From an uncultured Bdellovibrionales bacterium (GTDB lineage Bacteria; Bdellovibrionota; Bdellovibrionia; Bdellovibrionales; Bdellovibrionaceae): a stretch of DNA of 64,000 nt. How positions within the stretch are numbered: position 1 is the stretch's first letter; each line of letters opens with the position of its first letter. Position numbers and translations under genes: made by a program. The stretch covers positions 72,242 through 136,241 of the forward strand of contig CAIYID010000060.1 in NCBI GenBank assembly GCA_903926205.1, read 5' to 3'. Under the pieces are notes generated by a model that worked only from the letters and a program-made list of their open reading frames with translations, had not been told where the DNA came from and did not search any database. Positions 38,041 to 45,352 of this stretch are shown here, one piece after another.

Positions 38041-38448
38041 TTACCTGTTCTCTGTGATCGCATATCTCAATGCGGCTAATTTTTTATTTATCAACTGAAG
38101 CGCGGCTCGATACATGATCGTGTTTTCGGCTAACGAAGACATTTCGCGCTCTAGATCCACTGTGTTTCCATCATTATTAATTGCACCTTCTGGATTTTCA
38201 TAAATATCGGGTGATACTTTGGTGCTTTTGCCACCCACCGCAAAATGATCACCATGAGAAGTACTCATTCCGCGCAACCCATCAATATCCAAGGCTCTGG
38301 AGAGAGCTTCTTCAAAATCTATTTTTTTTGCATGATAGTTAGGCGTTTCCGCATTGGCGATATTCGAAGAAATCACATTGTGTTTGAGCAATCGCATATT
38401 CAACGCCGTCGAAAGCGCCGACGTTGTCTTATCAAACATTTCACTCAT
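38041..38448 (-). CDS. flgB: Flagellar basal-body rod protein FlgB
   Basis: Proximal rod subunit (135 aa). The N-terminal signature includes LKHNVISSNIANAETPNYHAKKID and the C-terminal half ends with EMSSLAENTIMYRAALQLINKK, both typical. The start overlaps the stop of the upstream NtrC-like regulator by 8 bases, so regulator and first structural gene are translationally coupled. Confidence 0.97.
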   Translation of the reverse strand: MSEMFDKTTSALSTALNMRLLKHNVISSNIANAETPNYHAKKIDFEEALSRALDIDGLRGMSTSHGDHFAVGGKSTKVSPDIYENPEGAINNDGNTVDLEREMSSLAENTIMYRAALQLINKKLAALRYAITENR

Positions 38449-39283
38449 AGGAAACCTCCTGCGAATATTCGCGATTCAATTCGCCACGGTACTGAGACAA
38501 TTTATTTCGCAAAGTCCGAATGCTAATTCCAAGCAGTCGAGCCGCTTGGCTTTTATTGTTTTGAGTTAGCTCCAAAGTTTGCATAATCAACTTTCTTTCC
38601 ATCTCTGCTAAAGTAGAAATTTTTTGCGTTGATTTTTTTACTTCATGATTCAATTTTAAATGCTCAACTTCAATCAAAGAGCCCGTAGTCAAAAGAGCCG
38701 CAGATTCCAAGACCTGTTCTAATTCACGAATATTTTCCACGAAATGGTAGTGAGACAATAAGTTTTGTGCTTCCCGCGAAAGTCTCAGCACTCGCCCCAT
38801 CACCCAAGAAAGTGTCATTAAAATATGATCCATCAAAAAGACTCGATCTGCCGCGCGCTCCGCAAGAGAAGGTATTCTTAATTCTTTTTGAAATTGAGCC
38901 AATAAATCTTTTCTAATCAAACCGCGTCTTACCAATTCATGAAGATCAGTTTGAGCTGTTGCAATCCATATGGTTTTTGAACCTGATGACAGCATCTGCT
39001 CAATAAGGACTTCTTGCTCGCGAAAATTTAAAAACTGTAGTTCGGATACGAGAACAACGCCTTCAGGAATTGGTTTAATCTCATTTTTTCGATAAATTTC
39101 AATTTTTAAACCTGCCGCAAAAGAATTTTCATGAATCAACTGAGCCATCAACCGACGCCCAGAACCAACTTCTCCCAAAATTAAAAAAGACATGTGATTC
39201 CGTGCCAAAGTATTTAAGTTTGCAATGATTTTTTGCAATCCGAAGTGCCCGGTTTGAATTTTTCCAAAATCAACAATTTTCAT
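38441..39283 (-). CDS. Degenerate NtrC-family regulator with Fis-type HTH, flagellar operon
   Basis: Derived from sigma-54 activators. It has an AAA+ core (about 12-200) with landmarks GLIRKDLLAQFQ and ENIRELEQVLESAALL, then a Fis-type helix-turn-helix (NNKSQAARLLGISIRTLRNKL, near the C-terminus). It lacks a receiver domain. Key parts are altered: Walker A reads GEVGSGRR (lysine replaced by Arg43, counting from ATG 39283), Walker B reads VVLVSEL, and the segment that should hold GAFTGA is missing, since only about 30 residues separate the two Walker motifs. It may bind DNA without activating sigma-54. ATG at 39283; it couples into flgB. Confidence 0.8.
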   Translation of the reverse strand: MKIVDFGKIQTGHFGLQKIIANLNTLARNHMSFLILGEVGSGRRLMAQLIHENSFAAGLKIEIYRKNEIKPIPEGVVLVSELQFLNFREQEVLIEQMLSSGSKTIWIATAQTDLHELVRRGLIRKDLLAQFQKELRIPSLAERAADRVFLMDHILMTLSWVMGRVLRLSREAQNLLSHYHFVENIRELEQVLESAALLTTGSLIEVEHLKLNHEVKKSTQKISTLAEMERKLIMQTLELTQNNKSQAARLLGISIRTLRNKLSQYRGELNREYSQEVSYE

Positions 39284-39318
39284 CAATGCCCCATCACCCT
39301 TATAATTCTCAGTACGCC

Positions 39319-42180
39319 TTAGTTTTTCTCACTCATTGCAGGAATTCTTTTTATGTATTTCTTATACTCATTATTCCAATCAGAATTTTTTAACTGTTCT
39401 TGCGCCAAGTTGTACCAAACTTCGCTCTTTTCATTTTTCAAACCATTCCAAGTGTCTGCGGCTTTTTGCAAATCCCCTTTTTTAAAATAAATATTTCCGA
39501 CTTTATATCGAATGGAGGCTAACGGCTTGGCATTTTCATAAAGCTTCAATAATTTTTCATAAGTTTCTAAAGCTTTGACCGTCTGATTCTGTTCAAAGTA
39601 GATATTTCCCAATTGTTCGAGCGCACGAAAATGAACATATGATGTAACTTTATTTTGTGAATCGATCATCAGTTGATCGATTTTTAATAAAGACTGAACC
39701 GCATCATCTTTTTTCCCTAATTTGAATTCTAATTCTGCCAGTTGCAAATAAGGATCTGCCACCAAAGAAGGGATTCCTTTCCAAGTTTTTATCAACTCCA
39801 CCAAATAACGAGTTGCGGAATTTGAATCTCCTTTTTTCTCTAAAAGACGAGCCCCCAATTGCACTCTTTCTATTTGTTGAATTTCCGTTAATACCTCAGG
39901 ATTTTTAATTGCCTTCATATGTTCGTAAGCCTGAACATTATTTCCGAGTTGCATTTCGGTGGTCGCTAATCTTAATTCCACCTCATCAATTGAAGGTAAG
40001 CGCTCAAAAATATTTCTTTGTTTTTCATCCTTAGTGCCTTTAATTGCCATCATCTTGTTGAGTGAATCGCGATAAAGCTTTTCCGCTTCACCATAAACAC
40101 CCGCCAATTCAAACGCTATTGCCACATTGTACTTCGTATCAATTCGATCTGAGCCCTTCAAACGATTCTCGGCGTATTTATTATGAATTCGGAGCGCTTG
40201 AATAAAATCACCAGAGTCTACCAGCGCTTTAATCTCTAAATTAATATTTTTAACGATACGATTATTAAGCAATTGGGTGTCTGCCGTTGTTGGATGGGCC
40301 TGATAAAATTTAACCAATAAACTAATCGCATTTTCATATTCAGCACGACTAGCATATCCATCAGAAATCAAAACATTTGAAAACTGATCCATGTTTGGCA
40401 AGTTTGATTTTTTTGTTAGCTCTGTAATATCTTCGATGGCACGCTCAACTTCTTTTGGCTTCATTGTACGCATTCGACTAGACAACAAACGCAACCGTGC
40501 AACGACACTACTCGTGTTTTCACCATAACGAAATTGAGTTTCAAGAAAAGCGCCAACAGATCGCGACTTATCTGCACCCATCATATCTAAAAGTTCACCT
40601 ACACGAGTCATCGCATAACCTGCAAAATCGTGATTTGGAAATCTTTTTAAAAACTCTAAATAAACTTTTATTGCTTCACGCGGCTTTTCCAATTTGAAAT
40701 AGGCTTCGGCCTGATTATAAAAAGCATTGGGAAAGTCACTTGCCCCTTCAGGATACTTAGCAATAGCAGCTTTGTAATTATCTATGGATTTTTGCAAAGA
40801 CTCCGATTTGCTTTTTCCTATTGAAGCTTCTCCATTTTGAAAAGCCACATCTCCAAGAATGTATGAAGAAATAACCTGATATTTACTTGCGCCGTCTTTA
40901 GCAATCTCTTGATACATTGCTTCGGCATCATTGAATTGTGTTAACTTAAGATACGCGTTAGCAATAGCCAATCGAGCAATGTCTTTATTTGGGGACTGAG
41001 GTAAATCCTGGATATGTTTTTGAAATAATCGTAAAGTTCCCAAAAAATCTCCGCGATCGAGGCTCGCAAATCCCATCAACATGCGGGTTCTTTCCATTAA
41101 AGGACTTTTCGGAAATTTTTCCAAAGCTTGGCGATATCTGGTCATTGCAAAATCAAAATCTCTAGCATCGCGTTTTTGCATCCACATCGCAAAATGTGTA
41201 TCCGCCCACATAAAACGAATAATTTCGTCATACTGAGAATTCGGATATTTCTCATAAAACCACTCTACGGCTTTGAGAAATACATTGTATCTTTTGTTTT
41301 CATAAAGAGTGAGTAATAGTCGAGCTTGTTTGTTTTCATTATTATCTTGCGGAATTATTTCATAAATTGGCTGAGCTGAATTTAGCTTTGTTAGCTCATC
41401 ACTCTCTGAGCGTAGCATCGGAAAGTCAGTGTAATAGTTTTCCCGCGAGGCAATGATTGAGTCTTCTTTGATTTCATAATCTTTGATGTCGAATCGATCA
41501 AAATTAGGATCACCAGCATCAAAAATTCCGCTCATTTTTTCGTCTTTATTCTTGTCCCCATTCTTTTCTTCCTTGTTGCCAAAAGTCGCTGGCCGAGCTG
41601 TATTTTCACCATTATTATTAATCGTTAGAACGTCAGTGCTGGATGGCTTACGACCTCTTTTTTTCGGCAAAACGGTATTCGCATTTTTGGTGTCTTTTTC
41701 TTGAAACGTAGGAACTGATTTTTCTTCATCTTTGGCAACGTCATTCGGCTTTACTTTAGAACTAGGAGCGACCGCGGACTTTGTTTTTTTTGCTTCATCC
41801 GTAGATTGATAAATATCAATGATTAATCGTGAAGGTTGGTCAGTTAAATAATCAAAAGCTTCAAGATTTTTGCTTTTTACTTTTAGTATAATAAGATCTT
41901 TGCCATCAGCGCCCTCGTGACGAACGGTCATACTTTCCACCAAAGGATTTTGCCATTTTTTTAAGGCCATAATTCCAGGTTCACTCAAATGCGGAATTTC
42001 AATATTAAAAGTCGTGGAATTTTTTTCTGCTTTTTTATCTATATTGTAGTCCCACTGACTTTGACCTTTAAATTCAATGTGTAGAGACTCACCGACCTGA
42101 GAAATTTCAGCCGTCACGCCTGCTGCGTAAACACTTCGACCAATGACTAGTGCCAACAAACCGATGATGATAGATCTCAA
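39319..42180 (-). CDS. Large periplasmic TPR protein with AMIN-like N-terminal domain
   Basis: A signal peptide (IIIGLLALVIGRSVYA) precedes an AMIN-like beta domain (about 22-135; SRLIIDIY near its end), which in other proteins binds peptidoglycan or secretin-type machinery. A low-complexity basic stretch (about 135-225) follows. About 650 residues of TPR-type repeats then run to the C-terminus (for example FPKSPLMERTRMLMGFASLDRGD and FPNHDFAGYAMTRVGELLD). TTG at 42180 follows AGGAG. Only 35 bases separate it from the NtrC-like regulator, so it is probably the first gene of the flagellar transcript. A periplasmic scaffold for flagellar assembly is a guess. Confidence 0.75.
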   Translation of the reverse strand: MRSIIIGLLALVIGRSVYAAGVTAEISQVGESLHIEFKGQSQWDYNIDKKAEKNSTTFNIEIPHLSEPGIMALKKWQNPLVESMTVRHEGADGKDLIILKVKSKNLEAFDYLTDQPSRLIIDIYQSTDEAKKTKSAVAPSSKVKPNDVAKDEEKSVPTFQEKDTKNANTVLPKKRGRKPSSTDVLTINNNGENTARPATFGNKEEKNGDKNKDEKMSGIFDAGDPNFDRFDIKDYEIKEDSIIASRENYYTDFPMLRSESDELTKLNSAQPIYEIIPQDNNENKQARLLLTLYENKRYNVFLKAVEWFYEKYPNSQYDEIIRFMWADTHFAMWMQKRDARDFDFAMTRYRQALEKFPKSPLMERTRMLMGFASLDRGDFLGTLRLFQKHIQDLPQSPNKDIARLAIANAYLKLTQFNDAEAMYQEIAKDGASKYQVISSYILGDVAFQNGEASIGKSKSESLQKSIDNYKAAIAKYPEGASDFPNAFYNQAEAYFKLEKPREAIKVYLEFLKRFPNHDFAGYAMTRVGELLDMMGADKSRSVGAFLETQFRYGENTSSVVARLRLLSSRMRTMKPKEVERAIEDITELTKKSNLPNMDQFSNVLISDGYASRAEYENAISLLVKFYQAHPTTADTQLLNNRIVKNINLEIKALVDSGDFIQALRIHNKYAENRLKGSDRIDTKYNVAIAFELAGVYGEAEKLYRDSLNKMMAIKGTKDEKQRNIFERLPSIDEVELRLATTEMQLGNNVQAYEHMKAIKNPEVLTEIQQIERVQLGARLLEKKGDSNSATRYLVELIKTWKGIPSLVADPYLQLAELEFKLGKKDDAVQSLLKIDQLMIDSQNKVTSYVHFRALEQLGNIYFEQNQTVKALETYEKLLKLYENAKPLASIRYKVGNIYFKKGDLQKAADTWNGLKNEKSEVWYNLAQEQLKNSDWNNEYKKYIKRIPAMSEKN

Positions 42181-42485
42181 TCACTACTCCTATGCGTTTC
42201 CCGGCCATTCTAGCCGTCCAGTAATATCAAAAGCAGGAATGATGCCAACTCTGTTCTGGTCTGTCGGCAAAATATATCCATCTGGGAAAAATTTATCCGC
42301 GAAAAATTGTCAGTCCAGACGGAGCTTTGACACCGACATCTGACTGAAATTTTTTTAAATATTTTTTTAAACCCCGACCAATTGATAGATCTACTCTGAA
42401 CTTCTTACCCTCACTCGGATTGGACTTCAGAAGATCTCTAAAAATTCCGAGAACTTCCACGGAGTTACACAGCAAGGATTTCATC
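42181..42485. other. 305-base divergent intergenic region, flagellar cluster versus lipid-transport cluster
   Basis: No gene is supported here. The region carries a sigma-54 type promoter candidate for the minus strand (42231-42248). For the plus strand TTGACA occurs at 42327-42332, but no convincing -10 box lies 16-18 bases downstream. A/T-rich tracts occupy 42349-42373. Confidence 0.5.
42231..42248 (-). promoter_or_regulatory. Sigma-54 (-24/-12) promoter candidate for the flagellar TPR gene
   Basis: The minus strand reads TTGGCATC-ATTC-CTGCTT. The invariant GG (42246-42245) and GC (42234-42233) are separated by exactly 10 bases, as in the consensus TGGCAC-N5-TTGC. The predicted start of transcription is near 42221, about 40 bases before the TPR gene. 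Two consensus positions differ. The presence of an NtrC-family gene in the same cluster supports the reading. Confidence 0.5.
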
Positions 42486-42998
42486 ATGATGGGCCACCTT
42501 TTCAAATTGGGAATCGTTCTTGTTACCGCAGGATATTTATTCGCGGCGGGGTGCGTTTCAATCGACAACCCCTTAGCAGCGCCAATTCCTAAAAAGGCCA
42601 CTGACCTGTTTTTTACAGCGCCTGCACACGAATTTAAAGAAATCAAAAACAACACTGTCGATCGCGCCTGGCAAGACACTAAAAATGGAAATACAATTGC
42701 TTATCTTTCAGAATGCAATGCCAAAACAGAATCTTCCTTAAAGGGAATGGAAGCAGAAAATCTTGCTGCCTTAACGAATGTGGAAATCACGGATAGCAAG
42801 GAATACATCTTCAATGAGCGCGAAGCTTTAATGACCACCGTCAATGGTCAAGTCGACGGAGTCGATATCAAGCTTCGATTAGTTATTTTCAAGAAAAACG
42901 GCTGCAATTTTACTTTAAGTTTTGTTGGTCGCAAAAAGTTTTTTGGACAAGGTGAAAAAATCTTCAAAAGCTTTGTTGAGGATTTTAAAGCCCCATGA
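42486..42998 (+). CDS. Lipoprotein preceding the Mla-type transporter genes
   Basis: ATG at 42486 (AAGGA upstream) gives a signal peptide ending in the lipobox LFAAGC. The mature part (about 148 aa) is an alpha/beta domain with two cysteines (LSECNAK and KNGCNF) and a final FVEDFKAP. I do not recognise a named family. Its stop overlaps mlaE (ATGA), so it is made with the transporter. It could be the periplasmic or outer-membrane lipid-handling partner in place of MlaC or MlaA, neither of which is present. That role is inference from context. Confidence 0.65.
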   Translation: MMGHLFKLGIVLVTAGYLFAAGCVSIDNPLAAPIPKKATDLFFTAPAHEFKEIKNNTVDRAWQDTKNGNTIAYLSECNAKTESSLKGMEAENLAALTNVEITDSKEYIFNEREALMTTVNGQVDGVDIKLRLVIFKKNGCNFTLSFVGRKKFFGQGEKIFKSFVEDFKAP

Positions 42999-43777
42999 CA
43001 ACACCTGCTTTTCTCAGTCTATTTTATGCTGCACTAGAAATCTTAGGAGGAGTTGGCTTCCTCGTGAAGGATTTTTTTCATGAGGGGCTTAGAGGAAAAA
43101 TTGAAACACATCTTTTAATTGAACAAATTTACCAAATTGGCTCTCGTTCTTTTCCCCTCATCGCACTCACCGCCGTCTGCGAAGGCATGGTGATGACCTT
43201 ACAATTTGGGTTCAGTCTTTCAAAATTTGGTGGTCAGCCATATATTCCAAAAATTGTATCCCTTTCCATTTTGCGTGAAATGGGTCCAGTTTTTACGAGC
43301 TTAATGATTGCCGCTCGCGTGGGCGCTGGAATCGCCTCAGAAGTCGGCTCCATGGTTGTGACTCAACAAGTGGATGCGATGAGAGCCCTTGGAACCTCAC
43401 CGATCAAAAAAATTGTCGTGCCACGCGTTTTAGCGACGACTATTACTTTGCCCATTCTCGCTAGTCTAGCCAACGTTATCGGAATCCTAGGTGCAATTGT
43501 GATTGGCAAATCTGAGCTTCGTCTTGATAGCGGATTTTTTATTCAAAAGGTTTTATCAACTATCGTCTTGTCGGATTTCTATTCAGGCATTGGAAAAACG
43601 GTGGTTTTTGGAATCCTCATTTCTTTTGTTGCCTGTTATTACGGCTTAAATGTCAAAGAAGGTGCGAAAGAGGTTGGGATTTCTACAACAAAGGCTGTGG
43701 TAACGACCTCGATTTTGATTTTGATCGGTGATTTTTTTCTTACAAAATTATTTTGGATTATCGAACATGCATTTTAG
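42995..43777 (+). CDS. mlaE: MlaE-type ABC permease (phospholipid transport)
   Basis: Inner-membrane permease of the MCE/Mla lipid transport systems (260 aa, five to six helices). Conserved parts are LTAVCEGMVMTLQ, LREMGPVFTSLMIAARVGAGIASEVGSM and the cytoplasmic EVDAMRALG-type stretch (here QQVDAMRALGTSPIKKIVVPR). It is coupled to the upstream lipoprotein gene by a 4-base overlap, with mlaF 34 bases downstream. Confidence 0.93.
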   Translation: MTTPAFLSLFYAALEILGGVGFLVKDFFHEGLRGKIETHLLIEQIYQIGSRSFPLIALTAVCEGMVMTLQFGFSLSKFGGQPYIPKIVSLSILREMGPVFTSLMIAARVGAGIASEVGSMVVTQQVDAMRALGTSPIKKIVVPRVLATTITLPILASLANVIGILGAIVIGKSELRLDSGFFIQKVLSTIVLSDFYSGIGKTVVFGILISFVACYYGLNVKEGAKEVGISTTKAVVTTSILILIGDFFLTKLFWIIEHAF

Positions 43778-43811
43778 TAAAAACTTTTTATGAACTATAA
43801 AAGAGCGAATT

Positions 43812-44543
43812 ATGAATTTAATTGAAGTAAAAAATTTCTACAAAAGCTTCGGCAAAAAAATAGTTCATCAAGGCGTCGATTTCGCAGTAAAAAAAGGTGA
43901 GTGTTTAGGGCTTATCGGTGGTTCGGGAACAGGAAAATCTGTGCTTTTGCGAAGTTTAATTGGTTTAGAACACCCTGACCAAGGTCAAGTTCTCTTTGAA
44001 GGTCAAGACATCACCAAACTCAGCGAAAATCAACTCATTGATATTCGTAAAAAGATTGCTTACGTTTTTCAAGGTGGCGCACTGTTTGACTCAATGACTG
44101 TGTATGAAAACCTGGCTTATCCACTGCGGGCTCATACCAAATTGCCTGAATCAGAGATTCAAGAAAAAATCACTTTTCAACTTTCTGAATTTGGGCTTCA
44201 AGGCACAGAAAGTGTTTATCCCGCAAATCTTTCAGGTGGTATGCAAAAACGTGTAGGCCTTGCGCGCTCGATCATTTTGCATCCTGATATAATTCTTTAT
44301 GATGAGCCCACAGCAGGATTGGATCCTTTTAATACCAAACGAATTCAAGAAATGATTTTGCAAATGAAAAGCAAGGGCCATACTTCGATACTTGTGACTC
44401 ATGATATGCCGGTTGCTTTTGCCGTTTGCGATCGTATTGCTATGTTGATGAATGGACGCATTGAAGCCATCGGTAGCGTTGATGAAATTGAAGAGAAATC
44501 AAATCACCTGATTTTGCAATTTGTACAGGGGGAGATTCGCTAA
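43812..44543 (+). CDS. mlaF: MlaF-type ABC ATPase
   Basis: ATP-binding subunit for MlaE. Walker A is GGSGTGKSVL (about residues 36-45), the Q-loop is YVFQGGALFDSMTV, which is typical of MlaF, the signature is LSGGMQKRVGLAR, Walker B is IILYDEPTAGLDP and the switch region is LVTHDM. The length is normal (243 aa). The stop and the mlaD start share a base (TAATG). Confidence 0.95.
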   Translation: MNLIEVKNFYKSFGKKIVHQGVDFAVKKGECLGLIGGSGTGKSVLLRSLIGLEHPDQGQVLFEGQDITKLSENQLIDIRKKIAYVFQGGALFDSMTVYENLAYPLRAHTKLPESEIQEKITFQLSEFGLQGTESVYPANLSGGMQKRVGLARSIILHPDIILYDEPTAGLDPFNTKRIQEMILQMKSKGHTSILVTHDMPVAFAVCDRIAMLMNGRIEAIGSVDEIEEKSNHLILQFVQGEIR

Positions 44544-45352
44544 TGGAAAACTCAAAGAACAAAACTTTTCGGGTTGGCATATTTTTAGCCATTGGCGTCT
44601 TTGTGATTATGCTCTCCATCGTTTTACTTGGAGGTGACAAGGCCTTCTTCAGAACAAATGTGTTAATGTATGCAACTTTGGATCAGGTCCAAGGCTTAGA
44701 CCGCGGAAGCACCGTGAGCCTCTCAGGAATCGTGATCGGCAATGTGAAACAAATTAAATTTTCAAGTGAGAAAAAAAACCTCGTTGTTGAGATGAAAATT
44801 CAAGAAGATTTTTTGCCGATGTTAACTCAAGGCTCGCGCGCCGATGTGCGCACCCAAGGCGCCCTTGGTGATAAATACATCTATATTACTCCTGGGGAGA
44901 TCACCGCCCCACCTTTAAAAGCAGGTGACACCATTGAGACCAGCAAATCCGCAGATTTCATGGGAATCATTTCCGAAAAAGGCGGTGAAGCCGTGAAAAT
45001 ATTCGATATTATCAATGAAGTTTATAAACTCACGAAAATTATTAATGCTGACGGAAGATCCGAAAGGCTCATTACAAATTTTGTCGAAGCTAGTCAGAAC
45101 ATGAAAAGCATTTCAGAGGATGCAAAAAAGTTGATGTCAGAAATGCGCGGTCAGAACTCAGGAAAGCTAAAAGAATCCCTTGAACACTTAAATTCTGTTT
45201 TAACAAAAATTGATCGCGGAGATGGTTCCTTGGGTGCTTTAATTAACGACCCAACCTTACATGAGCGATTGAAAGCCATGCTGGGTGCCGACACTCACAA
45301 ACAATCCATTCAATCGCTCATTCGCACATCAATTCAAAAAAGCGGGAATTAG
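44543..45352 (+). CDS. mlaD: MlaD-type MCE-domain protein
   Basis: Membrane-anchored MCE protein that would form the periplasmic ring of the lipid transporter. One N-terminal helix (VGIFLAIGVFVIMLSIVLLG) is followed by an MCE domain (about 35-125) with DQVQGLDRGSTVSLSGIVIGNVKQI and GALGDKYIYITPG. A helical tail of about 100 residues ends in HERLKAMLGAD. It is longer than E. coli MlaD (269 against about 183 aa) because of that tail. No mlaC or mlaB follows. Confidence 0.92.
   Translation: MENSKNKTFRVGIFLAIGVFVIMLSIVLLGGDKAFFRTNVLMYATLDQVQGLDRGSTVSLSGIVIGNVKQIKFSSEKKNLVVEMKIQEDFLPMLTQGSRADVRTQGALGDKYIYITPGEITAPPLKAGDTIETSKSADFMGIISEKGGEAVKIFDIINEVYKLTKIINADGRSERLITNFVEASQNMKSISEDAKKLMSEMRGQNSGKLKESLEHLNSVLTKIDRGDGSLGALINDPTLHERLKAMLGADTHKQSIQSLIRTSIQKSGN

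Follow-up and report, generated by a model that had tools for sequence, protein, structure and literature searches.

VpsR, TyrR, HupR and DhaR are proteins resembling enhancer-binding proteins (EBPs) that lack a working GAFTGA, and three of them (TyrR, DhaR and HupR) act at sigma-70 promoters (PMC3162934). In the NtrC proteins of R. capsulatus and Caulobacter, L1 with its GAFTGA is deleted and DNA binding is retained (PMC10274813). Among flagellar regulators, FlbD not only activates but also represses flagellar genes at ftr sites (PMC3930126), and Rhodobacter sphaeroides possesses a pair of stand-alone flagellar EBPs, FleQ and FleT, the latter encoded in an operon with fliEFGHIJ (PMC7277832, PMC9542535). 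The stretch of DNA analysed here (64,000 nucleotides; 'the window') carries, directly upstream of flgB, a degenerate protein of this kind, termed A. No paper on such a flgB-linked degenerate family was found in the open-licence literature.

Protein A and its neighbourhood

Counted from its ATG, A comprises 280 aa (38441..39283, minus strand), and a TTG one codon earlier would extend the frame to 38441..39286 on the same strand. The protein stands alone, without a receiver domain, and its gene is separated by 35 nt from a TPR-repeat gene encoding 953 aa. Downstream of flgB, the same strand carries flgC, fliE, fliF and fliG, as recognized by sequence, while Pfam identified fliH, fliI, fliJ, fliK, flgD and flgE as further flagellar genes on that strand. 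A divergent gene set at 42995-45352 (plus strand), with a small lipoprotein-like ORF at 42420 ahead of it, resembles a Mla-type lipid ABC transporter (permease, ATPase and substrate-binding protein).

38041..38448, minus strand: flgB, overlapping A by 8 nt (ATGAGTGA) and followed by flgC and fliE
38441..39283, minus strand: degenerate stand-alone sigma-54-activator-like protein A (AAA+ remnant, lid, Fis-type HTH)
38489..38557, minus strand: HTH with recognition helix ISIRTLRNK, unchanged in 28 of 28 family members
38624..38860, minus strand: AAA+ lid domain (Pfam, AlphaFold)
39041..39061, minus strand: Walker B remnant VVLVSEL, Asp replaced by Ser
39071..39115, minus strand: approximate site of the L1 (GAFTGA) deletion, 14 residues versus 29-30 in other families
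39152..39175, minus strand: P-loop remnant GEVGSGRR, Lys replaced by Arg, as also in the two nearest relatives (G015, G019)
39319..42180, minus strand: TPR-repeat gene, first gene of the operon, located upstream of A or flgB and conserved across the order

A sequence-only reading of the window had derived A from the sigma-54 activators, had reported a Walker A of GEVGSGRR, a Walker B of VVLVSEL and the missing GAFTGA, and had described A as translationally coupled to flgB. The descent is supported by ENIREL beside the Fis-type HTH and by a tree and synteny shared with intact orthologues (below), and the motif lesions are confirmed in the sequence, as is an overlap of 8 nt with flgB. By Pfam, A matches AAA_lid_14 (2.8e-14) and HTH_8 (3.6e-16), yet its Sigma54_activat match spans profile positions 8-48 of 168 only, that is, the N-terminal quarter. 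The Walker A Lys, Walker B Asp-Glu and sensor I Asn of a functional activator are replaced in the window by GSGRR, VSEL and ATAQ, respectively.

The AlphaFold2 model of A (mean pLDDT 82) retains an AAA+-like core, the lid and the HTH, and its best structural matches in PDB are ZraR (1ojl, top), NtrX, FlrC, NtrC1 and VpsR. The AAA+ lid and Fis-type HTH that mark an enhancer-binding protein are thus both present, by Pfam, by the model and by the match to ZraR. As modelled, the fold remains and the sigma-54 contact loops are gone.

Motif loss and repeated gene loss in the window's family

Among 60 related genomes, flgB was found in 57 and the region upstream of each was read; 36 of these genomes belong to the window's family (f1) and 21 to other families. 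In the other families, a stand-alone EBP of 309-382 aa is located upstream of flgB in 20 of 21 genomes, G042 (f7) being the sole exception outside f1. In f1, a shortened A is present in 28 of 36 genomes, mostly with 276-308 aa; in genus g3 it measures 233-240 aa in three genomes and 137-141 aa (a lid remnant plus the HTH) in two more, while in the eight f1 genomes without A the TPR gene lies directly against flgB. These orthologues are held together by shared synteny (TPR-A-flgB-flgC-fliE) and common ancestry, apart from a paralogue, B, described below. With intact A as query, no intact copy was found at E<=1e-90 in 66 f1 genomes, whereas 20 of 20 positive controls from other families were matched.

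L1 with GAFTGA, on which a functional sigma-54 activator depends, is absent from A of the window and from 28 of 28 f1 orthologues, so that the deletion is conserved. The motif table gave, for f1 versus the other families, the L1 Phe in 0/28 versus 20/20, the Walker B Asp in 1/28 versus 19/20, the sensor I Asn in 0/28 versus 17/20 and the P-loop Lys in 22/28 versus 20/20; the recognition helix RTLRNK is present in 28/28 and 20/20. The P-loop Lys is replaced by Arg in the window and in its relatives G015 and G019, and also in G031 of g3. The L1 block is cut from 29-30 residues elsewhere to 4-14 in f1, and together with it the L2 block, a second sigma-54-facing loop whose shortening the sequence-only reading had missed, from 16 to 5-9 residues. 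The f1 proteins have thus lost the two loops with which known activators face sigma-54 and DNA.

In a tree of A with paralogue B as outgroup (f1 proteins of at least 260 aa), all f1 proteins form one clade (100/100) and A is separated from B (100/100); long branches call for caution on the order inside f1. Judged from this sequence tree, the motif loss is old, clade-wide and of single origin, and is not the decay of one copy. Early damage is seen in two of the three genera of f2, the family nearest to f1 in the tree: one flgB-linked EBP (L143; G037) carries GAFVGA and GAGKH, and another (L135; G045) carries NGF-GN and a KD Walker B and lacks the sensor I Asn. The same decay may be starting there in parallel.

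Identity of the HTH is 0.76 inside f1 and among the other families alike, while that of the AAA+ domain is 0.30 in f1 versus 0.64 in the other families. In close species pairs of genera g7 and g6, to which the measurement applies rather than to the window's copy, dN/dS of the ATPase remnant is 0.01-0.06 (the window's close relative G001, 54% complete, does not include the region); in other pairs synonymous sites are too diverged or the values are higher (for example, 0.24 in g2). The low dN/dS and the conserved HTH indicate that A is kept by selection, though its ATPase domain has been freed from former constraints. A simple pseudogene or an assembly error is ruled out by the open frames in all 28 f1 genomes carrying A. 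The sequence-only reading had held that intact orthologues would mark A as merely decaying. Such orthologues exist, in other families only; decay is nevertheless not a general explanation, because the loss is family-wide and of single origin, with purifying selection where it is measurable.

On the tree of the TPR protein, about five switches between presence and absence of A are needed, and well-supported branches impose four of these; A was lost at least four times. Within the subclade of the window, A evolves fast, on long branches, and is gone from four of nine genomes; for these reasons the copy in the window may be heading for loss. Plain decay of A in general, with activation passed to another EBP and A persisting by inertia or by translational coupling to flgB, would accommodate the very long branches of this subclade, the stepwise shortening and the repeated loss, and the flgB overlap could keep the reading frame open. 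It is however improbable given a recognition helix unchanged in 28 of 28 members, an HTH as conserved as that of the intact proteins, low dN/dS even across the ATPase remnant and frames that are open throughout.

The sigma-54 promoter, its upstream site and candidate activators

42232-42247, minus strand: sigma-54 -24/-12 promoter TGGCATCATTCCTGCT, ahead of the TPR gene and kept in 53 of 57 orthologous loci
42308..42333, minus strand: predicted upstream activator site GTGTCAAAGCTCCGTCTGGACTGACA, GTCA-rich, 60 bp above the -24 element

In the window alone, -24/-12 matches are not above chance (36 versus 32.5 expected). The candidate that the sequence-only reading had placed upstream of A is very probably real, as 53 of 57 loci retain it; three of the remaining four lie on contigs that end too early. 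This promoter is also present in nine of nine genomes without A. Loss of sigma-54 from f1 is ruled out, as rpoN was found in every genome at least 90% complete, and replacement of the operon's sigma-54 promoter is ruled out by its conservation across loci. Since A is unable to activate and the promoter persists even where A is missing, a different activator must fire it.

The upstream site was defined by an EM motif, an earlier spaced pattern having been so strict that most real sites fail to match it. The motif, gTGTCATnnnTTTGtCaGgncngnCA, scores above the 99% null in 39 of 41 genomes with A and in six of nine without. The distance from the site to the -24 element is mostly 60-62 bp, and the other distances are mostly helically phased, at steps of 11 bp (R=0.64 and p about 1e-3 with the main class left out). 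A motif trained on the other families only selects the same positions in f1, with lower scores; it exceeds the 99% null in 13 of 23 f1 genomes with A versus two of eight without, and a tie between loss of the site and loss of A, judged in f1 with this motif, is not significant (Fisher p=0.22). As six of nine genomes without A retain the site, it probably has another reader besides A.

Survival of the site in most genomes lacking A would likewise be expected if the site were another EBP's and A had moved to sigma-70-type control, activating or repressing other promoters in the classical way by analogy with R. capsulatus NtrC and TyrR; GAFTGA-less EBPs of such a type are documented. Yet a changed target is not indicated, since degenerate and intact A share an identical recognition helix, genomes with either form show the same site pattern, and the upstream context of A's own operon is a sigma-54 promoter. 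We therefore consider such a switch quite unlikely.

Between the upstream site and the -24 element lies a further T-rich element (42266-42291, minus strand: TTTTTCCCAGATGGATATATTTTGCC). Similar T-rich TTTTTGCC...TTTGCC stretches are found in many f1 members and, more weakly, in other families; the element might mark a bend or provide another binding site.

Complete activators elsewhere in the genome, which the sequence-only reading had surmised, are indeed encoded there, with 12 strong sigma-54 activation domains. Paralogue B (G000:C64:65130-66197; 356 aa) has GSFTGA and an HTH (ITIKTLYNKL) related to that of A. It is >65% identical in nearly all genomes and is present in one, G038 (83% complete), where neither flgB nor fliM was detected, so B is not purely flagellar; in G011 and G016, flagellar genes are present and B is missing or diverged. 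Paralogue B is thus not established as the only flagellar activator. A second candidate is L002, a response-regulator EBP adjoining a histidine kinase; EBPs similar to it are located 12-33 kb from flgB in many relatives, a matter of similarity that does not imply orthology.

Several observations touch sigma-54 elsewhere in the order. Two members, G038 and G039, without detected flgB and fliM, nonetheless harbour rpoN and the paralogue-B gene (diverged in G039). In the window's genome, the fliL-fliM operon (L214, G000:C91) has a sigma-54 promoter, TGGCAY-N6-TGCW, with GTCYTGT before it, which is kept in nearly all relatives examined, as well as GTCA-N6-TGAC-like elements. Genome-wide, TGGCAYNNNNNNTGCW has 47 matches versus seven for the reversed pattern, many of them ahead of genes with signal-peptide-like starts; the pattern suggests that sigma-54 controls a large set of genes for the cell exterior.

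Proposed action of A and comparison with known systems

With L1, L2, Walker B and sensor I lost or changed, and the P-loop Lys missing as well from the window's copy, A would be unable to contact or remodel the sigma-54 holoenzyme, and it cannot plausibly act as a sigma-54 activator alone. Our best explanation, to which we give about an even chance as a whole, is that an activation-dead A binds the upstream site of the operon and modulates an intact EBP, most likely lowering expression. A would then be the disarmed descendant of a flgB-linked flagellar sigma-54 activator, sitting as a dimer, via its unchanged HTH, on the conserved GTCA-rich site of its own operon. The promoter would be fired by an intact EBP, either paralogue B or the two-component activator with its histidine kinase. 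Modulation of that activator would most likely amount to product feedback that limits operon expression, by occupancy of the site or by insertion of dead subunits.

Alternatively, A could be an obligatory or helpful partner, whose hetero-oligomers anchor the intact activator at the enhancer while that activator supplies L1 and ATP hydrolysis, as suggested by analogy with FleQ/FleT and HrpR/HrpS. The P-loop Lys is retained in 22 of 28 f1 members, the structure model still folds the lid and AAA+ core, and FleT of R. sphaeroides, encoded with fliEFGHIJ, acts with FleQ. Such a partner is nevertheless unlikely: the sigma-54 promoter stayed through at least four losses of A, and in g3 the ATPase domain is mostly or wholly gone (137-240 aa), leaving little for oligomers. 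Repeated loss with persistence of the promoter and mostly of the site fits the dispensable modulator proposed above better than an obligatory co-activator.

In its boldest form, which we offer tentatively and hold to be less than evenly probable, this modulation would be a family-wide regulatory inversion, with the disarmed activator as a feedback antagonist that holds the enhancer against its intact paralogue and, in one genus, is pared to a DNA-binding protein of 137-141 aa; the stepwise series would then lead from an AAA+ activator to a simple repressor. One gene at one locus provides a replicated natural series, from full activator through a loop-less form with P-loop, a P-loop-less form and one of lid and HTH only to absence, along which the promoter, and mostly the enhancer, is constant. 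It allows asking which parts of an EBP non-activating regulation requires, and how a flagellar operon comes under another activator while its promoter is retained. For the whole f1 family, the automatic label 'sigma-54 activator' would mislead.

The 'new arrangement' of flagellar control claimed in the sequence-only reading is too strong, because GAFTGA-less EBPs (the NtrCs of R. capsulatus and Caulobacter, VpsR and TyrR) and an interacting flagellar EBP pair (FleQ/FleT) were already known. VpsR, TyrR, HupR and DhaR belong to different pathways, differ from A in domain make-up and have no link to a flagellar operon. FleQ and FleT act jointly as activators, whereas A seems to have lost ATPase activity and can be dispensed with in several genera. 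Caulobacter FlbD and Vibrio FlrC share the AAA+ core, lid and Fis-type HTH with A but have a receiver domain and an intact L1, both of which A of the window lacks. In the two NtrCs, as in A, L1 is missing and the DNA-binding part is retained; unlike A, both carry a receiver, work at sigma-70 promoters and require ATP binding, the Caulobacter protein needing its Walker A and B residues, and A goes beyond them in that its Walker B and sensor I have changed as well. The flgB-linked EBPs of the sister families resemble A in gene order (TPR-A-flgB-flgC-fliE), absence of a receiver, HTH, promoter and upstream site, and differ from it in having kept GAFTGA, P-loop, Walker B, sensor I and L2, with slight damage in two f2 genera.
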